DNA from: Haladaptatus salinisoli
Lineage (GTDB): Archaea; Halobacteriota; Halobacteria; Halobacteriales; Haladaptataceae
NCBI RefSeq assembly: GCF_020614375.1
Contig: NZ_CP085330.1
Location: 124,001-188,000 of the forward strand
Length of the DNA: 64,000 bases
Direction: 5' to 3'
The notes beneath the pieces are model-generated. The model was not told the origin of the DNA, made no database searches, and saw only the letters and a list, made by a program, of their open reading frames with translations. The translations under genes were made by a program, and so were the position numbers. The first letter of the stretch is position 1, and each line of letters opens with the position of its first letter. This document shows, in pieces, positions 31,846 through 63,508 of the stretch.

Positions 31846-32022
31846 CTTCGCACTCTTCGCGGTTATTCGTTTCGGTATTTCGAGGGAAAATAGCGCCGGT
31901 CGAACCGCGTACCGAATTCGACCTCCGTCTGACTCTTCAACCACAAGATATAAAGATGCCTTAACGAATGGTTTATTAACAAACTGCTCCAATCGGAAAA
32001 ACCTGAACACTTGAAATCAACT

Positions 32023-32589
32023 ATGGTTGCTGACGAATCAACGATTCTCGTCGTCGACGACGAGGAAGACGTAACGGATCTCTACGCGACGTGGCTAGAG
32101 GATTCCTACGATGTCCGGCGGGCGTACGAGGGCCACTCGGCGTTGGAAAAACTGGACGACGAAGTGGACGTCGTGCTGCTCGACCGCCGGATGCCCGGTC
32201 TCTCCGGCGACGAAGTTCTCGAACAAATCCGGAACCGCGAACTCCACTCCCGCGTGGTGATGGTCACCGCCGTCAAACCGGATTTCGACATCATCGACAT
32301 GGGCTTCGACGACTACCTCGTCAAACCGGTGTCGAAAGACGACCTCTACACCACCGTCGAAGGGATGCTCACTCGCGTCGAGTACGACGACCGGATGCAG
32401 GAGTACTTCTCGCTCGTGTCGAAGAAAGCCGTGCTCGAAGCCGAGAAAGACGAGGAGGAACTCGCCGAGAACGACGGGTATCGAGAGCTGACGGTGCGAG
32501 TCGAGACCCTCCGAGAAACGGTGGACGACGCGCGAGCGAGCCTCCGCGACCACGACGATTTCGTCGGCGCCTTCCAGGACCTCTCTTAA
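32023..32589 (+). CDS. HalX-domain response regulator
   Basis: Protein of 188 residues. Receiver domain (residues 1-120): acidic pair in ILVVDDEEDVTDLY, phospho-acceptor Asp in VVLLDRRMPGLSGDE, Thr in VVMVTAVKP and Lys in DDYLVKPVSKD. The C-terminal 65 residues form the HalX helical domain typical of haloarchaea, with a charged coiled-coil (RVETLRETVDDARASL). ATG 32023 is used rather than an upstream TTG. No kinase gene is adjacent, so the partner histidine kinase lies elsewhere. It overlaps the convergent hdeD-like gene by 4 bases. Confidence 0.92.
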   Translation: MVADESTILVVDDEEDVTDLYATWLEDSYDVRRAYEGHSALEKLDDEVDVVLLDRRMPGLSGDEVLEQIRNRELHSRVVMVTAVKPDFDIIDMGFDDYLVKPVSKDDLYTTVEGMLTRVEYDDRMQEYFSLVSKKAVLEAEKDEEELAENDGYRELTVRVETLRETVDDARASLRDHDDFVGAFQDLS

Positions 32590-55197: not shown

Positions 55198-55513
55198 TGT
55201 TCGTTCACCCTCGCGCGACGAGGTGCGGGCGCGTCGTCCGCACCGTCCGCGCGTCGATTCGGCTAGGGAGGCACCGTTCTTTGTTATTCGTCGGCCCACT
55301 CGGCGGATTGCCCGGCTTACTTCCCGCCTCCGCCGGGAAATCGGACGTTTACCGGGCGCGACTTCTGTTCGGACCGACTGCCGCCGGACGAACGACGGCG
55401 AGCGACTTCACGATTTTTTACACTTCGACGCAACCCCGATACCTCGCACGTCCGCGATTCCCGCTCTCACGCCCAATAGAGATATATGCCGAGTGTGGCG
55501 ACATTGTACTAGT
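55198..55513. other. Divergent intergenic region, Rieske to first ATPase gene
   Basis: A 316-base region with no convincing gene. It carries the first cassette promoter near 55476-55502 and, on the other side, the Rieske gene promoter. Confidence 0.55.
55476..55502 (+). promoter_or_regulatory. Promoter of the first KaiC-like cassette
   Basis: ATAGAG-ATATA, then five bases TGCCG and AGTGTGG. The same order, ATAGAA-ATATA, five bases and AGGGTGG, stands before the second cassette, so both share the TATA and a downstream AG-K-GTGG element. Confidence 0.6.
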
Positions 55514-56983
55514 ATGAGCCACGATCCCCCGGCGAGGATATCGAGTGGCGTGTCCGGACTGGACGAGATACTACAGGGCGGGCTCATTTCAGGCCGGAGT
55601 TACCTCGTTCGCGGCGACCCGGGAACCGGGAAGACCATCTTAGGGATGAACTACCTCACCGCCGCCGACGCGGACGAGACGGCGCTGTTCGTCAATCTGG
55701 AGGAATCCGAGGACGATATCCGCGCCAACGCGGCGGCGGTCGACATCGACCTCTCCGACATTCGCTTCTTGGATTTGAGTCCGGACTCCGACGTCTTCAC
55801 CGAAGAACAGTCCTACGACGTCTTCGCGCCGAGCGAAGTCGAGCAGGAACCGCTGACGCAGGCGATCACCGACCGCGTCGAATCGCTCGACCCCGACCGC
55901 GTCTTCATCGATCCGTTAACGCGACTCCGCCATCTCACGTCCGACGAGTACCAGTTCCGAAAACAGGTCATCGCGTTCATGCGCTACCTAAAAGAGCACG
56001 GAACGACCGTCCTGCTAACCTCCGAGAACACCGCGCTCTCGCCGGACGACGACCTCCAGTACATGACCGACGGCACCATCGAACTCGAACGCGCGGAGGC
56101 GGGTCGCACCGTCACCGTCCCGAAGTTCCGCGGGTCGTCCATCCGCGAGGGAAGCCACTCGATGCGAATCGGCGCGGGCGGCATCGAGATACACCCGGAA
56201 CTCGAACCGGGCGGACGAGGGGGCGGGTTCGCGGCCGAACCGACGCCGTCCGGCGTCCCCGAGATGGACGAACTGCTCCACGGCGGACTGGATCGCGGGA
56301 CGGTCACGGTGATAAGCGGGCCGACCGGCGTCGGCAAGACGACCACCGGCACCCAGTTCATGAAGGAGGCGGCGGGCCGCGGCGAACGCTCGGCCATCTA
56401 CATGTTCGAGGAAGCGACCGAGACGTTCATGCGCCGGAACGAGGCCATCGATATCCCCGTCGAGAAGATGCTCGAACAGGGGACGCTGTCGGTTTCGGAG
56501 GTCGAACCCCTCGACCACACCGCGATGGAGTTCGCCCGAAACGTGCGTCGGGAGGTCGAGGAGAACGACATCGGCATCGTCATGATAGACGGATTACAGG
56601 GGTACAAACTGTCCGTCCGGGGGGAGGACGAGGAAACGTTGGTCCGCAAACTCCACACGCTCTGTCGCTACCTGAAGAACGCGGGCGTCACCGTCATCCT
56701 CGTCGACGAAATCGACACCGTCACCGGCGAGTTTCGAGCGACCGAGGCCGGCATCAGCTACCTCGCCGACAACATCGTCTTCCTCCGCCACCTCGAAATC
56801 GCCGGCGAGATGCGGAAGGCGGTCGGCGTCCTGAAGATGCGAACCAGCGACTTCGAGCGCACGCTCCGGGAGTTCCGCATCACGGAACGCGGAATCACCG
56901 TCGGCGAACCGCTCACCGGTCTTCGCGGCGTCCTCACCGGGTCTCCGGAGTGGACGCCCGCCGCGGAACCGAGTGATGGCTGA
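55514..56983 (+). CDS. Double-domain KaiC/RadA-like ATPase, copy 1
   Basis: RecA-superfamily ATPase of 489 residues with two KaiC domains. Domain 1 (about 8-240): Walker A GDPGTGKT, then the catalytic Glu pair in FVNLEESEDD, Walker B VFIDPLTRL and LRHLTSDEYQFRKQV. Domain 2 (about 255-480): Walker A GPTGVGKTT, Glu pair in YMFEEATETF, Walker B IVMIDGLQGY, then VILVDEIDTVTGEF and a C-terminal arm. It ends in a small tail. The two domains are the KaiC double-RecA layout, but no KaiA/KaiB genes are here and the autophosphorylation Ser/Thr pair of cyanobacterial KaiC cannot be confirmed. Its stop overlaps the receiver gene by 8 bases. Copy 2 lies 6.1 kb downstream. Confidence 0.88.
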   Translation: MSHDPPARISSGVSGLDEILQGGLISGRSYLVRGDPGTGKTILGMNYLTAADADETALFVNLEESEDDIRANAAAVDIDLSDIRFLDLSPDSDVFTEEQSYDVFAPSEVEQEPLTQAITDRVESLDPDRVFIDPLTRLRHLTSDEYQFRKQVIAFMRYLKEHGTTVLLTSENTALSPDDDLQYMTDGTIELERAEAGRTVTVPKFRGSSIREGSHSMRIGAGGIEIHPELEPGGRGGGFAAEPTPSGVPEMDELLHGGLDRGTVTVISGPTGVGKTTTGTQFMKEAAGRGERSAIYMFEEATETFMRRNEAIDIPVEKMLEQGTLSVSEVEPLDHTAMEFARNVRREVEENDIGIVMIDGLQGYKLSVRGEDEETLVRKLHTLCRYLKNAGVTVILVDEIDTVTGEFRATEAGISYLADNIVFLRHLEIAGEMRKAVGVLKMRTSDFERTLREFRITERGITVGEPLTGLRGVLTGSPEWTPAAEPSDG

Positions 56984-57344
56984 CCGCTCGCTCGTCCTCG
57001 CGCTGGGCAAGAACGAGCGGAACCTTCAGCTACTCGCCGAGCTGGTGGACGAGGAGGGCTGCGAGACGTACGTCGCCTCGACGGTCGACGAGTTCGACGC
57101 CGTCCTCCGGCGACGCGACGACGTCGCCATCGCCGTCCTCGACGCCGAAGGCTTCTCCGAAACCCTCTGGAAACGCTTCGAATCGCTCGACACGCGGGAC
57201 GTTTCGACCGTCGTACTCACCGCCGCGACGCCCGCCCGCCTTCGGCGCGAGGCCATCAGTCGGGGCGTCCGCGCCATCCTCGAAAAGCCGGTCGAGCGGG
57301 CGGACCTCCGAGCGACGATTCGCGGAATGCTCCGAGAGGGATGA
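56976..57344 (+). CDS. Receiver-like protein without the acidic pair, copy 1
   Basis: Protein of 122 residues from ATG 56976, a CheY-like fold. The phospho-acceptor Asp56 (VAIAVLDAEGF), a Thr/Ala end of strand 4 (VVLTAAT) and the Lys in ILEKPVE are present, but the N-terminal acidic pair that binds Mg is replaced by Leu-Gly in the signature LALGKNERNLQLL. That suggests it is not phosphorylated in the usual way and acts as a stand-alone regulatory or binding domain. Translationally coupled to the ATPase, and overlapping the MFS gene that follows by 4 bases. Confidence 0.8.
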   Translation: MADRSLVLALGKNERNLQLLAELVDEEGCETYVASTVDEFDAVLRRRDDVAIAVLDAEGFSETLWKRFESLDTRDVSTVVLTAATPARLRREAISRGVRAILEKPVERADLRATIRGMLREG

Positions 57345-58651
57345 GCACGCCCCGCGCCGGGACGGCGGCGTTCGAGACGCCCCGGCGCGCGCTCGCGACC
57401 GTGGTCGCCGTCGTCTTCATCGACCTGCTCGGATTCGGCATCATCATCCCCATCCTCCCGTTTTACGTCCGGAGCTTCGGCGTCAGCGACGTGTACATCG
57501 GGCTGCTCGCGGCGTCGTACTCGCTCGCGCAGTTCGTCTTCGCACCGATTCTGGGACGCCTCTCCGACGAACGCGGACGCCGACCGGTGTTGCTCCTCTC
57601 CATCGCCGGAAGCGCGGTAGCGTGGACGCTGTTCGGCGTCGGCGGGTCGATACTCGTCCTCTTCGCCTCCCGGATACTCGCGGGGGCGATGGGCGGCAAC
57701 ATCGCCACCGCGCAGGCCTACGTCGCGGACGTGACGCCGCCGGAGGAGCGGGCGAGCGCGCTCGGCCTCATCGGCGCTTCGTTCGGGCTGGGGTTCGTCT
57801 TCGGTCCGGCCCTCGGCGGTCTGTTCGCCAGCGAACCGGTCGTCTCGGCCGCCCGGAGCGTCCTCCCGGCCTTGGTTCCGGCGACCGCGTTCTCGCTCCC
57901 GAGCTTCGCCGCCGCCGCCCTCAGCCTGCTGAACCTCGCGTTCGCCCTCGTCTTCCTCGACGAACCGAACGCGCGGCGAACCGGGCCGACCCGGAGAACG
58001 TCGTTCGTCGGCCAGTTCGAAACCGCGCTCCGCGACGCGCGGCTTCGAGGACTGGTCGTCTCCTTTTTCGTCCTCTCGGTGGCGTTCTCGGGCGTGCAGG
58101 TCATGTTCATCCCGTTCGCGGCGGACGCCTACGGTTACACCGAGAGCCAGACCGCCATCCTGCTGACCTACGTCGGCGTCTTCGGCGCGGTGAATCAGGG
58201 GGTGGTGGTCGGAAGGCTCGCGCGCCGCTACGGCGATACGCGGCTCGCCATCGCGGGCGTCGTCTGCCTCGCCCTCGCGCTCGCCGCCATCCCGTTCGCG
58301 CCCGAACTCGGCCGAACCCTCGTTCCGTCGCTCCCCGATTCGGCGCTCCCCCGCTCGCTCCCCGTCCCGGCGTTCTTCACCCCCGAACTGCTCGGGCTGC
58401 TCGTCGTCCTCCCCGTGCTCTCGTTCGGCAACGGGACGCTCTCCGTGGCGCTCACGACGCTCGTCTCGAAGGAAACGAGCGACGAGACGCAGGGGAGCGC
58501 CTTCGGCGTCACCCAAGGCGCGGGTAGTCTCGGGCGAACGGTCGGGCCGCCGGTGATGGCGAGCGGCTACGTCCTCGCCCGCTGGTCGCCGTTCGTCGCG
58601 GGCGCGACCCTGCTCGTCCCGGTCCTCCTCATCCTCGCGCGCCGGCGGTGA
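57341..58651 (+). CDS. MFS transporter (TetA-like drug/H+ antiporter type)
   Basis: Protein of 436 residues. FIDLLGFGIIIPILPFYVRSFG is the first helix; motif A GRLSDERGRRPVLLLS; motif C-like GASFGLGFVFGPALGGLFA marks drug antiporters of the 12-helix group. NIATAQAYVADVTPPEERASALG is typical of the TetA(41)-like family. It is read from an ATGA overlap with the receiver gene, so it belongs to the first cassette operon. Substrate unknown. Confidence 0.88.
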   Translation: MSTPRAGTAAFETPRRALATVVAVVFIDLLGFGIIIPILPFYVRSFGVSDVYIGLLAASYSLAQFVFAPILGRLSDERGRRPVLLLSIAGSAVAWTLFGVGGSILVLFASRILAGAMGGNIATAQAYVADVTPPEERASALGLIGASFGLGFVFGPALGGLFASEPVVSAARSVLPALVPATAFSLPSFAAAALSLLNLAFALVFLDEPNARRTGPTRRTSFVGQFETALRDARLRGLVVSFFVLSVAFSGVQVMFIPFAADAYGYTESQTAILLTYVGVFGAVNQGVVVGRLARRYGDTRLAIAGVVCLALALAAIPFAPELGRTLVPSLPDSALPRSLPVPAFFTPELLGLLVVLPVLSFGNGTLSVALTTLVSKETSDETQGSAFGVTQGAGSLGRTVGPPVMASGYVLARWSPFVAGATLLVPVLLILARRR

Positions 58652-59818
58652 CGGGTTCGCCCGCGGTCGCCGGTCTCGCGCCCGGCGATCACTCGGTGGC
58701 GTTTCGGCTCGTGAACGGGTCCGGCCCGTTCCCCCACGAGTCGGCGTTCGACGCCGCGACCGTGACGGTGGACGTCGAACCGCCGGAACTCACCGTCGAG
58801 GCCGGTCGAGAGCAAGTGCGCCCCGGAACTCCGCTGCGCGCAATCGTTTCCGACACCGCGATTTCCGATGTTTCCTACCGGACGAATCGGAGCGAGAGCG
58901 GTTCTCTCGCCGTTTCAGAGACGCTCGACGAGCGGCGCTCGTTCTACGAAATCGACACGGCGGGGTGGCCCGCGGTCCCGACCGAACTCGTCGTCACCGC
59001 CCGCGACAGGTCCGGGAACGTCCGAACCGAGCGCGTCGTCTTCGACTTCGGCGGTGCGGGCGGCAAGGGACGCGAAGTCGGTGCGGACGTTGGCGGAGGT
59101 GGCGGCGGCGGTCGGAGCCGAACCGTCGTCCAGGTCGCGCCGGGCGACGACGGCGTGGCCGTCGACCTGCTCAACGGACGCGACGGCGTGGGCCGACCTC
59201 GGCGGTGCGAGCGCGAGCGGCGTCCGGTTCTCGGCGTTCGGCGTCACCTTCGACCGGAACGACGCCAACGCCGCGGTCACGCTCTCCGCCCGGACGCCGC
59301 CGAGCGACTCCCCGGCGGCGCCCTCGCCGCTCTCCGCGTCGAGAAGCGCTACGTCCGAACCGGGGACGTGGCGTCCGCGACGCTTCGATTCTCGCTCGGG
59401 GCGGACGCACTCCCGTCGGGCGCGTCGCCCGCCGACGTGGCGCTCTACCAGCGACGAGACGGCGGGTGGCGGCGACTCGCCGTTTCGCGGGAGGGGCGGA
59501 ACTTCTCCGCGACCGTCTACGACCTCTCGACGGTCGTCGTCGGGGTCGAGCGGGGCGGAGCGGACTCCGCGGCGTCGGGTGCGGGGAACGCTTCGACCGG
59601 CGAACGGGGAGGAGACGGCGGCGGAACGGACGACCGTGAGACGACCGAAACGAGCGTCGGACCCGCGACCGCGACCGACCGACCCGCGCCGACGACCGAG
59701 GGGTCGACCCCCGCGGCCCGAGACGGAGGGCGTCAGGAGCGACGGCCAGCCGGGCTTCGGATTTCTCGCCGCGCTCGTCGCGTTGATTCATCTCGTCCGT
59801 AAGAGACAACGCATTTAA
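58648..59818 (+). pseudogene. Broken PGF-CTERM surface protein
   Basis: A surface-protein remnant read through three frame changes. Frame A (from 58648) gives GDHSVAFRLVNGSGPFPHES and on to about 59185, frame B then gives SGVRFSAFGVTFDRNDANAA to about 59335, frame A again gives the PGF-pre-PGF domain (VEKRYVRTGDVASATLRFSL, ALYQRRDGGWRR), and frame B the terminal sorting signal GQPGFGFLAALVALIHLVRK at 59735-59818. No signal peptide precedes it, so the N-terminus is missing too. A Thr/Asp-rich linker lies before the sorting signal. Three frame changes could be genuine decay or base-call errors. Confidence 0.75.
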
Positions 59819-59841
59819 CCCTCTCGCGGTATCCTTCGGCA

Positions 59842-60588
59842 ATGCGAATCGAGAACAGTTTCATTCCCGTCCGCGGCGTGGGCGAGAAGACGGAACGAAA
59901 ACTGTGGCGGAACGGGGTCACGCACTGGGACGAGTTCGACCCCTCCTTCGTCGGGAGCAAGACGGGCGACCGAATCGAGTCGTTCATCGCCACCGCCAGC
60001 GAGCAGTTGGACGACGGCAACTCGCGTTTCTTCGCGTCGGAGTTTCCGAGCGGCGAGAGCTGGCGACTCTACGAGAACTTCCGCCCGAACACCTGCTTTT
60101 TCGACATCGAGACGACCGGCCTGAGCCACCACTCCAGCGTCGTCACCACGGTCAGCCTCCACCGCGACGGCGAGACGAAGACGCTCGTCCGCGGCGACGA
60201 CCTCACGCGGGACGCCCTCCGGCGCGAACTCGACGGGGCCGACCTGCTCGTCTCGTTCAACGGGAAGCGATTCGACCAGCCGTTCCTCGAATACGAGTTC
60301 GACCTGTCGTTCGACACGCCCCACGTCGATCTCATGTACCCCTGCAAGCGCCTGGGGCTGACCGGCGGGCTGAGCGCGGTCGAATCGGAACTCGAAATCG
60401 GCCGCGGCGGGATGGACATCAGCGGCGAGGACGCGGTTCGACTCTGGTATCGGTACGAAGCCGGCGACGAGGGCGCGCTCGATACCCTCGTTCGGTACAA
60501 CCAGTACGACACGCGGAATCTGGAGACCATCTTGGACCACGTCTGCGACACGCTCCACGAGGACGTGTTCGCCCGTCACCTGCCCTGA
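59842..60588 (+). CDS. DEDD-type exonuclease (RNase H-like, YprB-like)
   Basis: Protein of 248 residues. N-terminal region GVGEKTERKLWRNGVTHWDEF resembles a helix-hairpin-helix. The exonuclease core has the acidic residues in FFDIETTGLS, LLVSFNGKRFDQPFLEYEF and LVRYNQYDTRNLETI, matching the DEDD pattern of the RNase_H_2/YprB-like family. Acts probably on single-stranded or structured DNA or RNA; substrate unknown. Confidence 0.85.
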   Translation: MRIENSFIPVRGVGEKTERKLWRNGVTHWDEFDPSFVGSKTGDRIESFIATASEQLDDGNSRFFASEFPSGESWRLYENFRPNTCFFDIETTGLSHHSSVVTTVSLHRDGETKTLVRGDDLTRDALRRELDGADLLVSFNGKRFDQPFLEYEFDLSFDTPHVDLMYPCKRLGLTGGLSAVESELEIGRGGMDISGEDAVRLWYRYEAGDEGALDTLVRYNQYDTRNLETILDHVCDTLHEDVFARHLP

Positions 60589-60621
60589 GTCGGTTCGACA
60601 GCTGAATTTTCGACGGCAGAA

Positions 60622-60807
60622 TTACTCGGGATTCCACTCCCCTTCGAGGAACGTGGCGAGGGCGAAGAACGCGACGAAGAACAGACACGCCACGGAGATG
60701 GCGTCGCTCCCCGCCGCGTCGACCGCAATGGCTCCGAGCAACGACGCGATGACGGCGAGAAAGAAGACGACGAAGTTCAGTCGAATCCGGAGGGCGGTTT
60801 CGTCCAT
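60622..60807 (-). CDS. Small two-helix membrane protein
   Basis: Protein of 61 residues, ATG at 60807. Two helices (residues 11-30 and 36-54) and an acidic end EGEWNPE. Recognisably haloarchaeal in composition; function unknown. Confidence 0.65.
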   Translation of the reverse strand: MDETALRIRLNFVVFFLAVIASLLGAIAVDAAGSDAISVACLFFVAFFALATFLEGEWNPE

Positions 60808-60831
60808 ACCTTCACTGCGAAAACGAGCGCG

Positions 60832-61500
60832 TCAGTCCGGCGATTCGGTCGCGTCATCGCCGTCTCGGAACTCCGCCACCGCGCGAACCGGCGCGCCGTC
60901 GACGCCGCCGACCGACAGCGGGAACGCGTACAGCGCGAACCGCTCCGGCAGGCCGGCGAGGCCGGTCAGGTTCTCCACGATGAGGCGGTCCGCTCCGAGG
61001 AGTTCGCGGTGGGCGGGCAGGCCCTCCGGTTCGTCGCCGCCGGCGTTCTCGGTCGGCGTGGGGTCGACGCTCGGGGCGTCGACGGCGACGTGGTAGTCGT
61101 GGTCGGCGCACCACGCGGCGGCGTCGCTCGCGAGGTACGGGTGGTCGAAGTAAGCGTCCGTTCCCCAGCGGGCGTCCCATCCCGTATCGAAGACGAGCAT
61201 GTCGTCCTCGGTCGGTTCCGGAAGGGCGTCGCGCTCGATTGCGTCCCGCGCTCCCTTCCCGCGGCAGTCCACCAGCAGGGCGTCGAAGGAGAACGTCCCG
61301 ATGGGGAACGAATCGAGCGGCCGCCCGTCGGGTTCGATGTGACGGGGGGCGTCGACGTGCGTGCCGCTGTGGGTTCCAAGTCGGAGGCGGGAGACCCGGT
61401 ACCCGTCCGTCTCGTGGGTCGCGTGAGGTTCGATTTCGACCGAAGGGTCGCCGGGGTACGCCGTCGTCGTCTCCAGCGGGTGCGAGAGGTCGCGGTACAT
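60832..61500 (-). CDS. Cyclase family hydrolase (kynurenine-formamidase-like)
   Basis: Protein of 222 residues. The metal-binding motif HSGTHVDAPRH is the signature of the cyclase/kynurenine-formamidase family. DLSHPLETTTAYPGDPSVE at the N-terminus and the acidic loop ENLTGLAGLPERFALYAFPL at the C-terminus complete it. Probably an amide or lactone hydrolase with Zn or Mn; substrate unknown. Confidence 0.9.
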   Translation of the reverse strand: MYRDLSHPLETTTAYPGDPSVEIEPHATHETDGYRVSRLRLGTHSGTHVDAPRHIEPDGRPLDSFPIGTFSFDALLVDCRGKGARDAIERDALPEPTEDDMLVFDTGWDARWGTDAYFDHPYLASDAAAWCADHDYHVAVDAPSVDPTPTENAGGDEPEGLPAHRELLGADRLIVENLTGLAGLPERFALYAFPLSVGGVDGAPVRAVAEFRDGDDATESPD

Positions 61501-61604
61501 CCCGTCCCCCTACTCGCGTCGGCGCGATAAATCCCGGCGCTCGAGCGTCGATTTATAAATCCCTTTACCATTACCGTCGAATCCGCCGTCGGGCTTCCTA
61601 CTCC

Positions 61605-61632
61605 GATAGAAATATACTCTCAGGGTGGTCAA
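61605..61632 (+). promoter_or_regulatory. Promoter of the second KaiC-like cassette
   Basis: GATAGAA-ATATA, five bases CTCTC and AGGGTGG, the counterpart of the first cassette promoter. The ATG is at 61650. Confidence 0.6.
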
Positions 61633-61649
61633 ATACGGCAACGTCGCAC

Positions 61650-63131
61650 ATGACTGATGATTCACTGACGAGGATATCCACGGGAACGCCGGGACTGGAC
61701 GAGATCGTGCACGGTGGGTTCATCGCAGAGCGAAGCTATCTTCTCCGCGGCGACCCGGGAACCGGGAAGACCATCTTGGGAATGAACTACCTCACCGCCG
61801 TCGACGCGGACGAGACGGCGCTGTTCGTCAATCTGGAGGAATCCGAGGACGACGTCCGCGCCAACGCGGCGGCGGTCGACATCGACCTCTCCGACGTCCA
61901 CTTTCTCGATTTGAGTCCGGACTCCGACGTCTTCACCGAAGAGCAATCCTACGATATTTTCACGCCGAGCGAAGTCGAGCAGGAACCGCTGACGCAGGCG
62001 ATCACCGACCGCGTCGAATCGCTCGACCCCGACCGCGTCTTCATCGATCCGCTGACGCGACTCCGCCATCTCACGTCCGACGAGTACCAGTTCCGAAAAC
62101 AGGTCATCGCGCTGATGTACTATCTGAAAGAACAGGGTGCGACCATCCTCTTCACGTCGCAGCACAGCGACGAAACGTCGGACGACGACCTCCAGTACAT
62201 CACCGACGGCACCATCGAACTCGAGCACGCCTCCTACGGACGAACCATCACCGTCCCGAAGTTCCGCGGGTCGTCGGTCAACGACGGGGTACACGCGATG
62301 CGAATCGAATCGGGCGGTATCTCGGTGTCTCCCGGACTCTCTCTGGACGCCTCTTCGCGCTCGTTCGACCTCGAACCGCTCTCGTCCGGCGTTCCGGAGT
62401 TGGACGAACTGCTCCACGGCGGCATCGAACGCGGCACCATCACCATCCTCAGCGGGCCGACCGGCGTCGGCAAAACCACCGTCGGCACGCAGTTCATGAA
62501 GGAGGCGGCGGGCCGCGGCGAACGCTCCGTCATCTACATGTTCGAGGAGACGAGCGCGACGTTCTTCGAGCGCAGCGAGGCCATCAACATCCCCGTCAGC
62601 CGGATGCAAGAGCAGGATTCGCTCACGGTCGAGGAAGTCGAATCGCTCGACCGCTCCGCGACCGAGTTCGCCGATACGGTTCGGCAGGAGGTCGAAGCGA
62701 ACGACACCAGTATCGTCATGATAGACGGTATCGACGGCTACAAACTCTCGCTCCGGGACGACGACGAGCGCATGCTGATCAGCAAACTCCACACGCTCTG
62801 TCGCTACCTGAAGAACGCGGGCGTCACCGTCATCCTCGTCGACGAAATCGACACCGTCACCGGCGAGTTCCAGGCGACCGAGGCCGGCATCAGCTACCTC
62901 GCCGACAACATCGTCTTCCTCCGCCACCTCGAAACGACGGGCGAGATGCGGAAGGCCATCGGCGTCCTGAAAAAGCGCACGAGCGACTTCGAGCGCACGC
63001 TCCGGGAGTTCCGCATCACGGAGCACGGTATCATGGTCGACGAACCGTTGAACGAGCTCAGCGGCGTCCTCACCGGTTCACCCGAGCAGGCATCGGAACA
63101 ACCTGCGACGCGGCCGGGAGACGCTCGATGA
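61650..63131 (+). CDS. Double-domain KaiC/RadA-like ATPase, copy 2
   Basis: Protein of 493 residues, same domain plan as copy 1: Walker A GDPGTGKT and GPTGVGKTT, Glu pairs in NLEESEDD and MFEETSATF, Walker B VFIDPLTRL and IVMIDGIDGY. The N-terminal domain runs almost base for base with copy 1 (start offset 6136 bases), while the region after residue about 165 (QHSDETSDDDLQYI) and the domain 2 entry are more diverged, then the block around VILVDEIDTVTGEF is identical again. It starts at ATG 61650 and overlaps the receiver gene by 4 bases. Role as for copy 1. Confidence 0.88.
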   Translation: MTDDSLTRISTGTPGLDEIVHGGFIAERSYLLRGDPGTGKTILGMNYLTAVDADETALFVNLEESEDDVRANAAAVDIDLSDVHFLDLSPDSDVFTEEQSYDIFTPSEVEQEPLTQAITDRVESLDPDRVFIDPLTRLRHLTSDEYQFRKQVIALMYYLKEQGATILFTSQHSDETSDDDLQYITDGTIELEHASYGRTITVPKFRGSSVNDGVHAMRIESGGISVSPGLSLDASSRSFDLEPLSSGVPELDELLHGGIERGTITILSGPTGVGKTTVGTQFMKEAAGRGERSVIYMFEETSATFFERSEAINIPVSRMQEQDSLTVEEVESLDRSATEFADTVRQEVEANDTSIVMIDGIDGYKLSLRDDDERMLISKLHTLCRYLKNAGVTVILVDEIDTVTGEFQATEAGISYLADNIVFLRHLETTGEMRKAIGVLKKRTSDFERTLREFRITEHGIMVDEPLNELSGVLTGSPEQASEQPATRPGDAR

Positions 63132-63508
63132 GCGACGCGGCTCTCATCTTCGCGCTGGGAAAACAGGAGCGCAACCTCGAACTGCTCGCCGACCTCCTCA
63201 AAGACGGCGGTTACGACGTGGAGATAGCGACCTCCATCACGGAGTTCGACCGCCTCCTCGAACGGCGGGACGACGTCACCATCGCCGTCCTCGACGTGGA
63301 CGGGTTCACCGAGGATATCTGGAAGCGGTGCAAGCAACTCAACGACCGCGACATCTCCATGCTCGTTCTCGCCGCGCAGATTTCTCCTCACATGCGTCAG
63401 AAAGCCATCAGTCGGGGCGCGCAGACGCTCCTCGAGAAACCGATCGAGAAGGCGGACCTGCAGGCGACGATACGGGGACTGATGGAGTACATCCGGATGA
63501 ACCGATAA
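63128..63508 (+). CDS. Receiver-like protein without the acidic pair, copy 2
   Basis: Protein of 126 residues. As in copy 1 the signature ALGKQERNLELLADLL replaces the acidic pair, while Asp56 (TIAVLDVDGF) and the Lys in LLEKPIEK are kept. The C-terminal helix continues MEYIRMN. Overlaps the ATPase gene by 4 bases (ATGA). Confidence 0.8.
   Translation: MSDAALIFALGKQERNLELLADLLKDGGYDVEIATSITEFDRLLERRDDVTIAVLDVDGFTEDIWKRCKQLNDRDISMLVLAAQISPHMRQKAISRGAQTLLEKPIEKADLQATIRGLMEYIRMNR

Follow-up and report, generated by a model that had tools for sequence, protein, structure and literature searches.

A pseudo-receiver family that accompanies double KaiC-domain ATPases in haloarchaea: two cassettes of Haladaptatus salinisoli and a predicted KaiC-docking domain

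Homologues of the ATPase KaiC are numerous in archaea, and their outputs are largely undefined. In 2017, Makarova, Galperin and Koonin are said to have presented KaiC-like ATPases as hubs of archaeal signal transduction, with KaiC paralogues that have expanded and are tied to signalling domains. The system analysed here resembles those hubs, since KaiC is linked to signalling domains in it as well. It lies in a stretch of 64,000 nucleotides (nt) of Haladaptatus salinisoli (contig NZ_CP085330.1, positions 124,001 to 188,000; hereafter the window), which holds two cassettes, A and B, each composed of a gene for a double KaiC-domain ATPase (KaiC-A, KaiC-B) and a gene for a small protein (REC-A, REC-B) that belongs, by its sequence and predicted fold, to a family of pseudo-receivers (PsR). 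We show that members of this family are regular neighbours of double KaiC genes and that many of them form the first domain of a larger protein; as predicted from this gene pairing, the PsR is most likely a KaiC-docking domain.

The closest described systems each share part of this arrangement. A report of 2014 places cirC, the double KaiC gene of Haloferax volcanii, next to fixL, so that a double KaiC adjoins a sensor gene there too; unlike here, the portion of that report drawn on describes no shared receiver domain (PMC3941300). Other KaiC-like genes of H. volcanii have been deleted: according to the portion of PMC13286277 used here, loss of cirA or cirD changes motility, and loss of cirA also changes cell shape. 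Cyanobacteria likewise join KaiC and pseudo-receivers, those of KaiA and CikA, in one signalling system, as outlined in the consulted sections of a 2025 review whose authors state that they are aware of no published functional work on archaeal pseudo-receivers (PMC12632262). Unlike in cyanobacteria, the PsR gene here forms a direct pair with that of KaiC, Tyr occupies one phospho-site position, and KaiB was matched in 0 of the 28 genomes of the family (the control was matched in 6 of 14 genomes including Synechococcus, over the cut-off in 1; KaiA was not searched). KaiC-type and REC domains are also physically linked in the iKaiC-REC fusions of Methanosarcinaceae, whose KaiC is listed as inactivated in PMC5847659; in the present system KaiC and PsR are encoded by separate genes, and the motifs of both ATPase halves are intact. 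That source also describes archaeal REC-PAS-HisKA-HATPase kinases and Bat-type REC-PAS-GAF-BAT-HTH_10 proteins; it adds that phosphorylation might not take place in up to 40% of the REC domains of such kinases, that none had been characterised and that Bat carries a divergent REC of obscure role. Our fused PsR partners have these REC-first kinase and Bat-type architectures; that text names no partner for these REC domains, and the gene neighbour is here KaiC. KaiC as an archaeal hub is therefore already published, and the PsR pairing is the part for which we found no description in the literature covered, with priority unsettled because that coverage did not extend to the 2017 work.

Cassette A spans positions 55514-57344 and cassette B 61650-63508, on the same strand and with starts 6136 bases apart (Table 1). 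The two genes of a cassette overlap by 8 nt in A and by 4 nt in B, which bears out the preliminary description of this DNA as carrying two same-strand copies of an ATPase gene overlapped by a small receiver-like gene. The ATPases match PF06745 with whole-protein expectation values (E) of 8.4e-76 (KaiC-A) and 3.3e-76 (KaiC-B), and 370 of their 493 aligned columns are identical; the small proteins agree in 63 of 126 columns, REC-B lying above and REC-A below the Pfam receiver cut-off of 30.2 bits. A locus search with the free receivers returned 16 loci, the closest being the 7 from Haladaptatus, the genus of the window genome, to which genomes G003, G004, G005 and G008 also belong.

Table 1. Features of the two cassettes and of their surroundings in the window.
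Feature	Position	Strand	Basis
Upstream element CAATAGAGATATA of cassette A, probable basal promoter region	55474..55486	+	7/7 A copies of the genus
KaiC-A, double KaiC-domain ATPase, 489 amino acids (aa)	55514-56983	+	PF06745 in two stretches; A clade of the KaiC tree
REC-A, free-standing pseudo-receiver, 122 aa	56976-57344	+	Pfam 24.2 bits; row 2 of PsR alignment A1
Transporter of the major facilitator superfamily (MFS) behind REC-A, outside the conserved cassette	57341-58651	+	Absent from A loci L227-L231
Upstream element CGATAGAAATATA of cassette B	61604..61616	+	8/8 B copies of the genus
KaiC-B, double KaiC-domain ATPase, 493 aa	61650-63131	+	PF06745 in two stretches; conserved active-site columns
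REC-B, free-standing pseudo-receiver, 126 aa	63128-63508	+	Pfam 32.7 bits; AlphaFold2; Foldseek

The pairing was counted in 108 genomes of the order with a profile (A1) built from the neighbours of KaiC (70 of 79 domains, near-copies being dropped). A PsR was present within 3 kb of 60 of the 68 KaiC genes, in 48 of 51 KaiC-bearing genomes and in 24 of 27 genera. Seen from the other side, a double KaiC gene lay within 3 kb of 68 of the 80 strong PsR matches (E<=1e-13), versus 1 of the 34 weaker receiver matches, this limit having been set after a gap between 3.4e-14 and 7.3e-12 was seen; when matches overlapping the loci used for building the profile were excluded, 39 of 51 strong matches were near KaiC. 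We propose that a gene beginning with a PsR and located at most 3 kb from KaiC defines the KaiC-PsR group, and both window copies have such a gene. For 8 of the 68 KaiC genes a second PsR is present within this distance. Places at which a KaiC gene is followed by two PsR within 3 kb are G094:C4, G089:C28, G018:C3, G019:C2, G073:C2, G119:C2, G047:C6 and G037:C1.

Gene order was scored at 129 KaiC loci, which are the best-scoring KaiC matches and, as they include near-identical copies, are not independent (one locus, L176, was dropped because it has no KaiC). The PsR lies downstream on the same strand at 85 of them and divergently upstream at 34, and none was found at 10; a first scoring had given 80, 34 and 15, and a same-strand PsR was then found at the KaiC end in 5 of the 15. 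The 10 loci lacking a PsR comprise 1 cut by a contig end, 3 with a broken KaiC, 2 that are members of back-to-back pairs whose sister has a PsR, and 4 remaining ones. In a neighbouring genus, two back-to-back KaiC genes with one PsR kinase behind one of them are found at G015:C4:13043-19435 and G027:C3:160378-166770. Of the 23 PsR genes that encode a free-standing protein downstream of KaiC, 22 overlap the KaiC stop, and this overlap, together with the 3 kb counts, supports the earlier proposal that ATPase and receiver form one genetic unit. With 34 of the 129 loci divergent, an overlap of the two genes is nevertheless not universal.

What kind of receiver accompanies KaiC bears on how the pair could work. 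The metal-binding acids of receivers were mapped to positions 11 and 12 of REC-B by profile alignment to PleD. At position 11, the site of the first acid, 0 of 79 domains have an acidic residue; at position 12, all 23 free forms have Lys or Arg, and an acid occurs in 25 of the 56 fused forms. All 79 domains retain the acceptor Asp. The pocket Lys is retained by 22 of the 23 free forms and by 0 of the 56 fused ones, for which the pocket alignment is uncertain by one residue, with at best one of the two acids kept. The complete five-residue receiver pocket (DD, D, T, K; PF00072) is thus not present, and at least one of these residues is missing in 79 of 79 domains, as in the definition of a pseudo-receiver given in the consulted sections of PMC12632262. 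The AlphaFold2 model of REC-B has the beta-alpha-5 receiver fold (predicted local distance difference test score, pLDDT, 88.5), and so does that of one fused form (pLDDT 91.4), in which the second helix is not formed; among the 50 best PDB matches that Foldseek listed per model, nearly all were receiver domains or response regulators. The Pfam receiver model matches only 14 of 70 PsR domains at E 0.01, and the free and fused forms are homologous (hhalign probability 97.5, E 6.7e-12). By these sequences and models, the small protein is a pseudo-receiver, having a predicted receiver fold with a degenerate acid pocket, and such a pocket makes an ordinary phosphorelay unlikely. The preliminary description had regarded ATPase and receiver as one signalling machine; the pairing part of this idea stands, whereas the receiver is a pseudo-receiver by its pocket and, in 56 of 79 downstream partners, the first domain of a larger protein and not a free one. 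A working response regulator, whose Asp is phosphorylated by a kinase encoded elsewhere and whose phosphorylated form regulates KaiC, would agree with the predicted fold, the invariant Asp and the active-site Lys of the free forms; we regard it as unlikely, given that the first metal-binding acid is missing throughout and that a basic residue replaces the second in every free form.

The 79 downstream partners comprise 23 free, 3 middle-length and 53 long proteins, so that the free form found in Haladaptatus is a minority. Among the 56 larger proteins with the PsR first, a HATPase (kinase ATPase) domain occurs in 41, BAT in 11 and HTH_10 in 8, counts that are lower bounds because some proteins run off the fetched stretch. 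The PsR is hence the constant part, and the output behind it varies. On the KaiC tree, the downstream arrangement requires 9 changes versus 47.6 in shuffles (the label "none" included divergent loci), and the free rows fall within a clade of 28 rows that also holds 5 fused rows; switching between free and fused forms has therefore happened, its direction not being proven. None of the 8 odd-ended loci inspected contained a natural KaiC-PsR fusion. The 12 Bat-type loci of the window genome that were scanned, out of 40, gave no PsR match at E 1, although the flanks may miss the N-terminus.

The family extends outside the order. In a sample of 294 genomes of the phylum, PsR matches at E 1e-12 were obtained in 69 genomes, 31 of them outside the order, and 14 loci were taken from 14 of these 31. 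At 3 of the 14, a gap of 3 nt separates the end of a single KaiC domain from a PsR-first gene of 442-451 aa, and at 3 more a KaiC-type gene (one being a partial match) lies 57-154 nt before a gene for a PsR protein of 285-302 aa.

It should be stated that several observations weigh against a docking role. Gene order can reflect co-regulation only, and 34 of the 129 loci are divergent; 8 of the 68 KaiC genes have no PsR within 3 kb, and 12 of the 80 strong PsR matches have no KaiC within that distance, two of these adjoining KaiC remnants. Outside the order, 8 of the 14 loci have no KaiC by profile within the fetched stretch, and the PsR matches of family f19 are weak (E 5.5e-15 to 9.1e-13). 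In addition, the invariant Asp and the Lys of nearly all free forms leave room for phosphorylation chemistry. The divergent loci, at which no overlap is required, and the strong PsR matches without a nearby KaiC would fit a situation in which a promoter region and a pathway are common to KaiC and PsR but the two proteins do not touch, the PsR acting only in its own kinase or on another target. We hold this to be decidedly unlikely, as the PsR stays constant while the outputs are swapped and the same pairing recurs with a single KaiC domain at 6 of the 14 loci outside the order.

Some PsR genes have evidently outlasted their KaiC. On another contig of the window genome, a PsR kinase (C7:141358-141708, L181) stands behind an N-terminal KaiC remnant (aa 4-48), in G027 a free PsR lies behind a C-terminal KaiC remnant, and in G003 an open PsR follows a broken KaiC-B. 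A PsR can thus persist after loss of its KaiC, and one that outlives its own KaiC perhaps uses another.

The ATPase itself is of the two-domain KaiC superfamily type. In KaiC-B, both Walker A motifs (G34-T41 and G269-T276) and the pairs of catalytic Glu residues (E63-E64 and E299-E300) are present and conserved. Canonical circadian KaiC cut-offs are not reached, the best scores in the window being 268.1 for NF006799 (408 bits) and 168.3 for TIGR02655 (546.25 bits). In the phospho-site region, Thr410 and Ser415 are kept, at two of the known phospho-site positions, and the next residue is Tyr416, a column with Tyr in 119 rows and two other residues once each; the canonical pair, Ser431-Thr432, is not reproduced. 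Membership of a KaiABC-type clock was rejected on these scores, the phospho-site and the absence of KaiB from the 28 genomes of the family.

Based on the gene pairing and the pocket, we propose that KaiC acts with a dedicated PsR docking domain that would be controlled by binding to KaiC rather than by aspartate phosphorylation, and we consider this probable. That a PsR family accompanies KaiC, often at the front of kinases and regulators, suggests for it the role of reading out the ATPase. KaiC would be an active two-tier P-loop ATPase, probably forming a ring on which the PsR docks, with control exerted by this binding and not by ordinary phosphorylation of the aspartate. In many haloarchaea the PsR is the first domain of a histidine kinase or a Bat-type regulator, and the output attached to it would be switched by the nucleotide or phosphorylation state of KaiC. 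In Haladaptatus, where the PsR exists as two diverged small proteins of its own, the free form would either assist KaiC as its cofactor or adaptor or compete with the domains borne by kinases. The physical contact, the ring state, the direction of signalling and the role of the free form are what we infer. A wider generalisation, which we put forward tentatively and think somewhat more likely to fail than to hold, is that the reader of KaiC in euryarchaea is a single PsR family, most of which escapes Pfam, and that it binds the ring and passes the ring's ATP or phosphorylation state to interchangeable kinases, to transcription regulators or to nothing. If true, a KaiC output route would have evolved apart from KaiA, KaiB, SasA and CikA, and the free copies would be tunable competitors. 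The result joins two unknowns, the output of archaeal KaiC and the function of archaeal pseudo-receivers, in one short and testable protein pair, and proposes a partner for the uncharacterised N-terminal REC domains of archaeal kinases. Moreover, the free form of Haladaptatus is small enough for binding and structural work, and its A and B versions provide a natural test of specificity.

The two versions have a long history. In a tree of 110 KaiC proteins made by a quick method (from the 129 loci, rows below 420 aa after the last stop being left out and near-copies thinned), A and B separate into clades of 8 rows apiece (support 98 and 99), and both types are present in 7 of the 8 other genomes of the genus; the A copy of G007 is in pieces, the B copy of G008 has a stop, and in the eighth genome, G003 (the record of L227), both KaiC copies are broken. 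Judging from these separate orthologous clades across the genus, the A/B duplication is old, and a recent tandem duplication was rejected on the same ground. The window genome departs from this pattern within the ATPase genes: in four windows covering about codons 31-150, the third codon positions of KaiC-A and KaiC-B are 0.87-0.97 identical (0.93 in a later window), whereas KaiC-A agrees with its own orthologues at only 0.52-0.67 of these positions on average. The longest exact tracts shared by the two genes measure 89 and 88 nt; between the A and B copies of the other six genomes compared, no tract exceeds 62 nt. The ATPase cores of the window genome look as if they had been recently homogenised by gene conversion, and the receivers, given their divergence, do not. 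Homogenised cores next to distinct receivers fit a common engine with distinct partners.

Selection also runs in parallel within the pairs. The median ratio of nonsynonymous to synonymous substitution rates (dN/dS) is 0.061 for REC-B and 0.070 for KaiC-B, and 0.220 for REC-A and 0.147 for KaiC-A (15 comparisons each, from six copies per gene with other copies left out; at about 0.5 synonymous differences per site, the values are rough). Constraint is tight in the B pair and looser in the A pair, which we count in favour of the docking proposal. The free receiver as a decaying remnant of a KaiC-linked kinase, devoid of important function, would be in line with the predominance of larger proteins among the downstream partners and with the restricted occurrence of REC-B-like matches (19 of 392 genomes at E 1e-10). 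Purifying selection on both receivers, the presence of at least 2 matches in 7 of the 8 other genomes of the genus, and the PsR of G003, open where its KaiC is broken, make such decay very unlikely.

The MFS gene starts within REC-A, overlapping its stop by 4 nt, and the preliminary description had suggested that the first cassette drives this carrier as a possible output. The gene is missing from the five A loci L227-L231 of four relatives, in which the fetched sequence extends that far (L228 and L229 being two copies from one genome), and none of the fetched loci besides the window's own gave a match at E 1e-5. At this place Haladaptatus litoreus (L231) has a gene of 879 aa with a secreted-looking product, the tail of which is presumably of the PGF type. 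Behind the MFS gene, positions 58652-59815 of the window contain two broken pieces, in two frames, of the end of that 879 aa gene, the front of which has been replaced by the MFS gene. Because the carrier is absent from these relatives and stands over a broken gene, most likely it was acquired late and does not represent a conserved output; control of the carrier by KaiC-A and REC-A was rejected on this synteny and, despite the 4 nt overlap, strikes us as scarcely credible.

Both cassettes have the promoter layout in common that had been attributed to them. An element of the form C[AG]ATAGA[AG]ATATA ends 27 (A) and 33 (B) bases 5' of the start codons, and these two elements are the only sites in the window with at most one mismatch to CSATAGARATATA. 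Exact CNATAGARATATA sites number 3 in the whole genome, the elements of cassettes A and B included, versus 0 for the reversed control. Within the genus (the window's copies included), one of the A copies has one base changed, and three of the B copies have GGTAG for GATAG. The third exact site of the window genome (C1:304673-304685, L241) precedes an unrelated-looking open frame, and the sequence upstream of the orphan PsR kinase L181 resembles the cassette element.

Two further genes of this genome may be mentioned. A third double-KaiC gene is located on the same contig as the window (C4:376551-377956; L017 3546-4963), spread over two frames (aa 8-92, aa 114-485) and with no pseudo-receiver nearby; the genes of G001, G002 and G004 that are likely to be related to it have open frames and also lack one. 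Finally, positions 32011-32589 of the window encode a receiver protein of 192 aa that keeps the acid pair and is a weak match to the PsR profile (E 3.5e-9).

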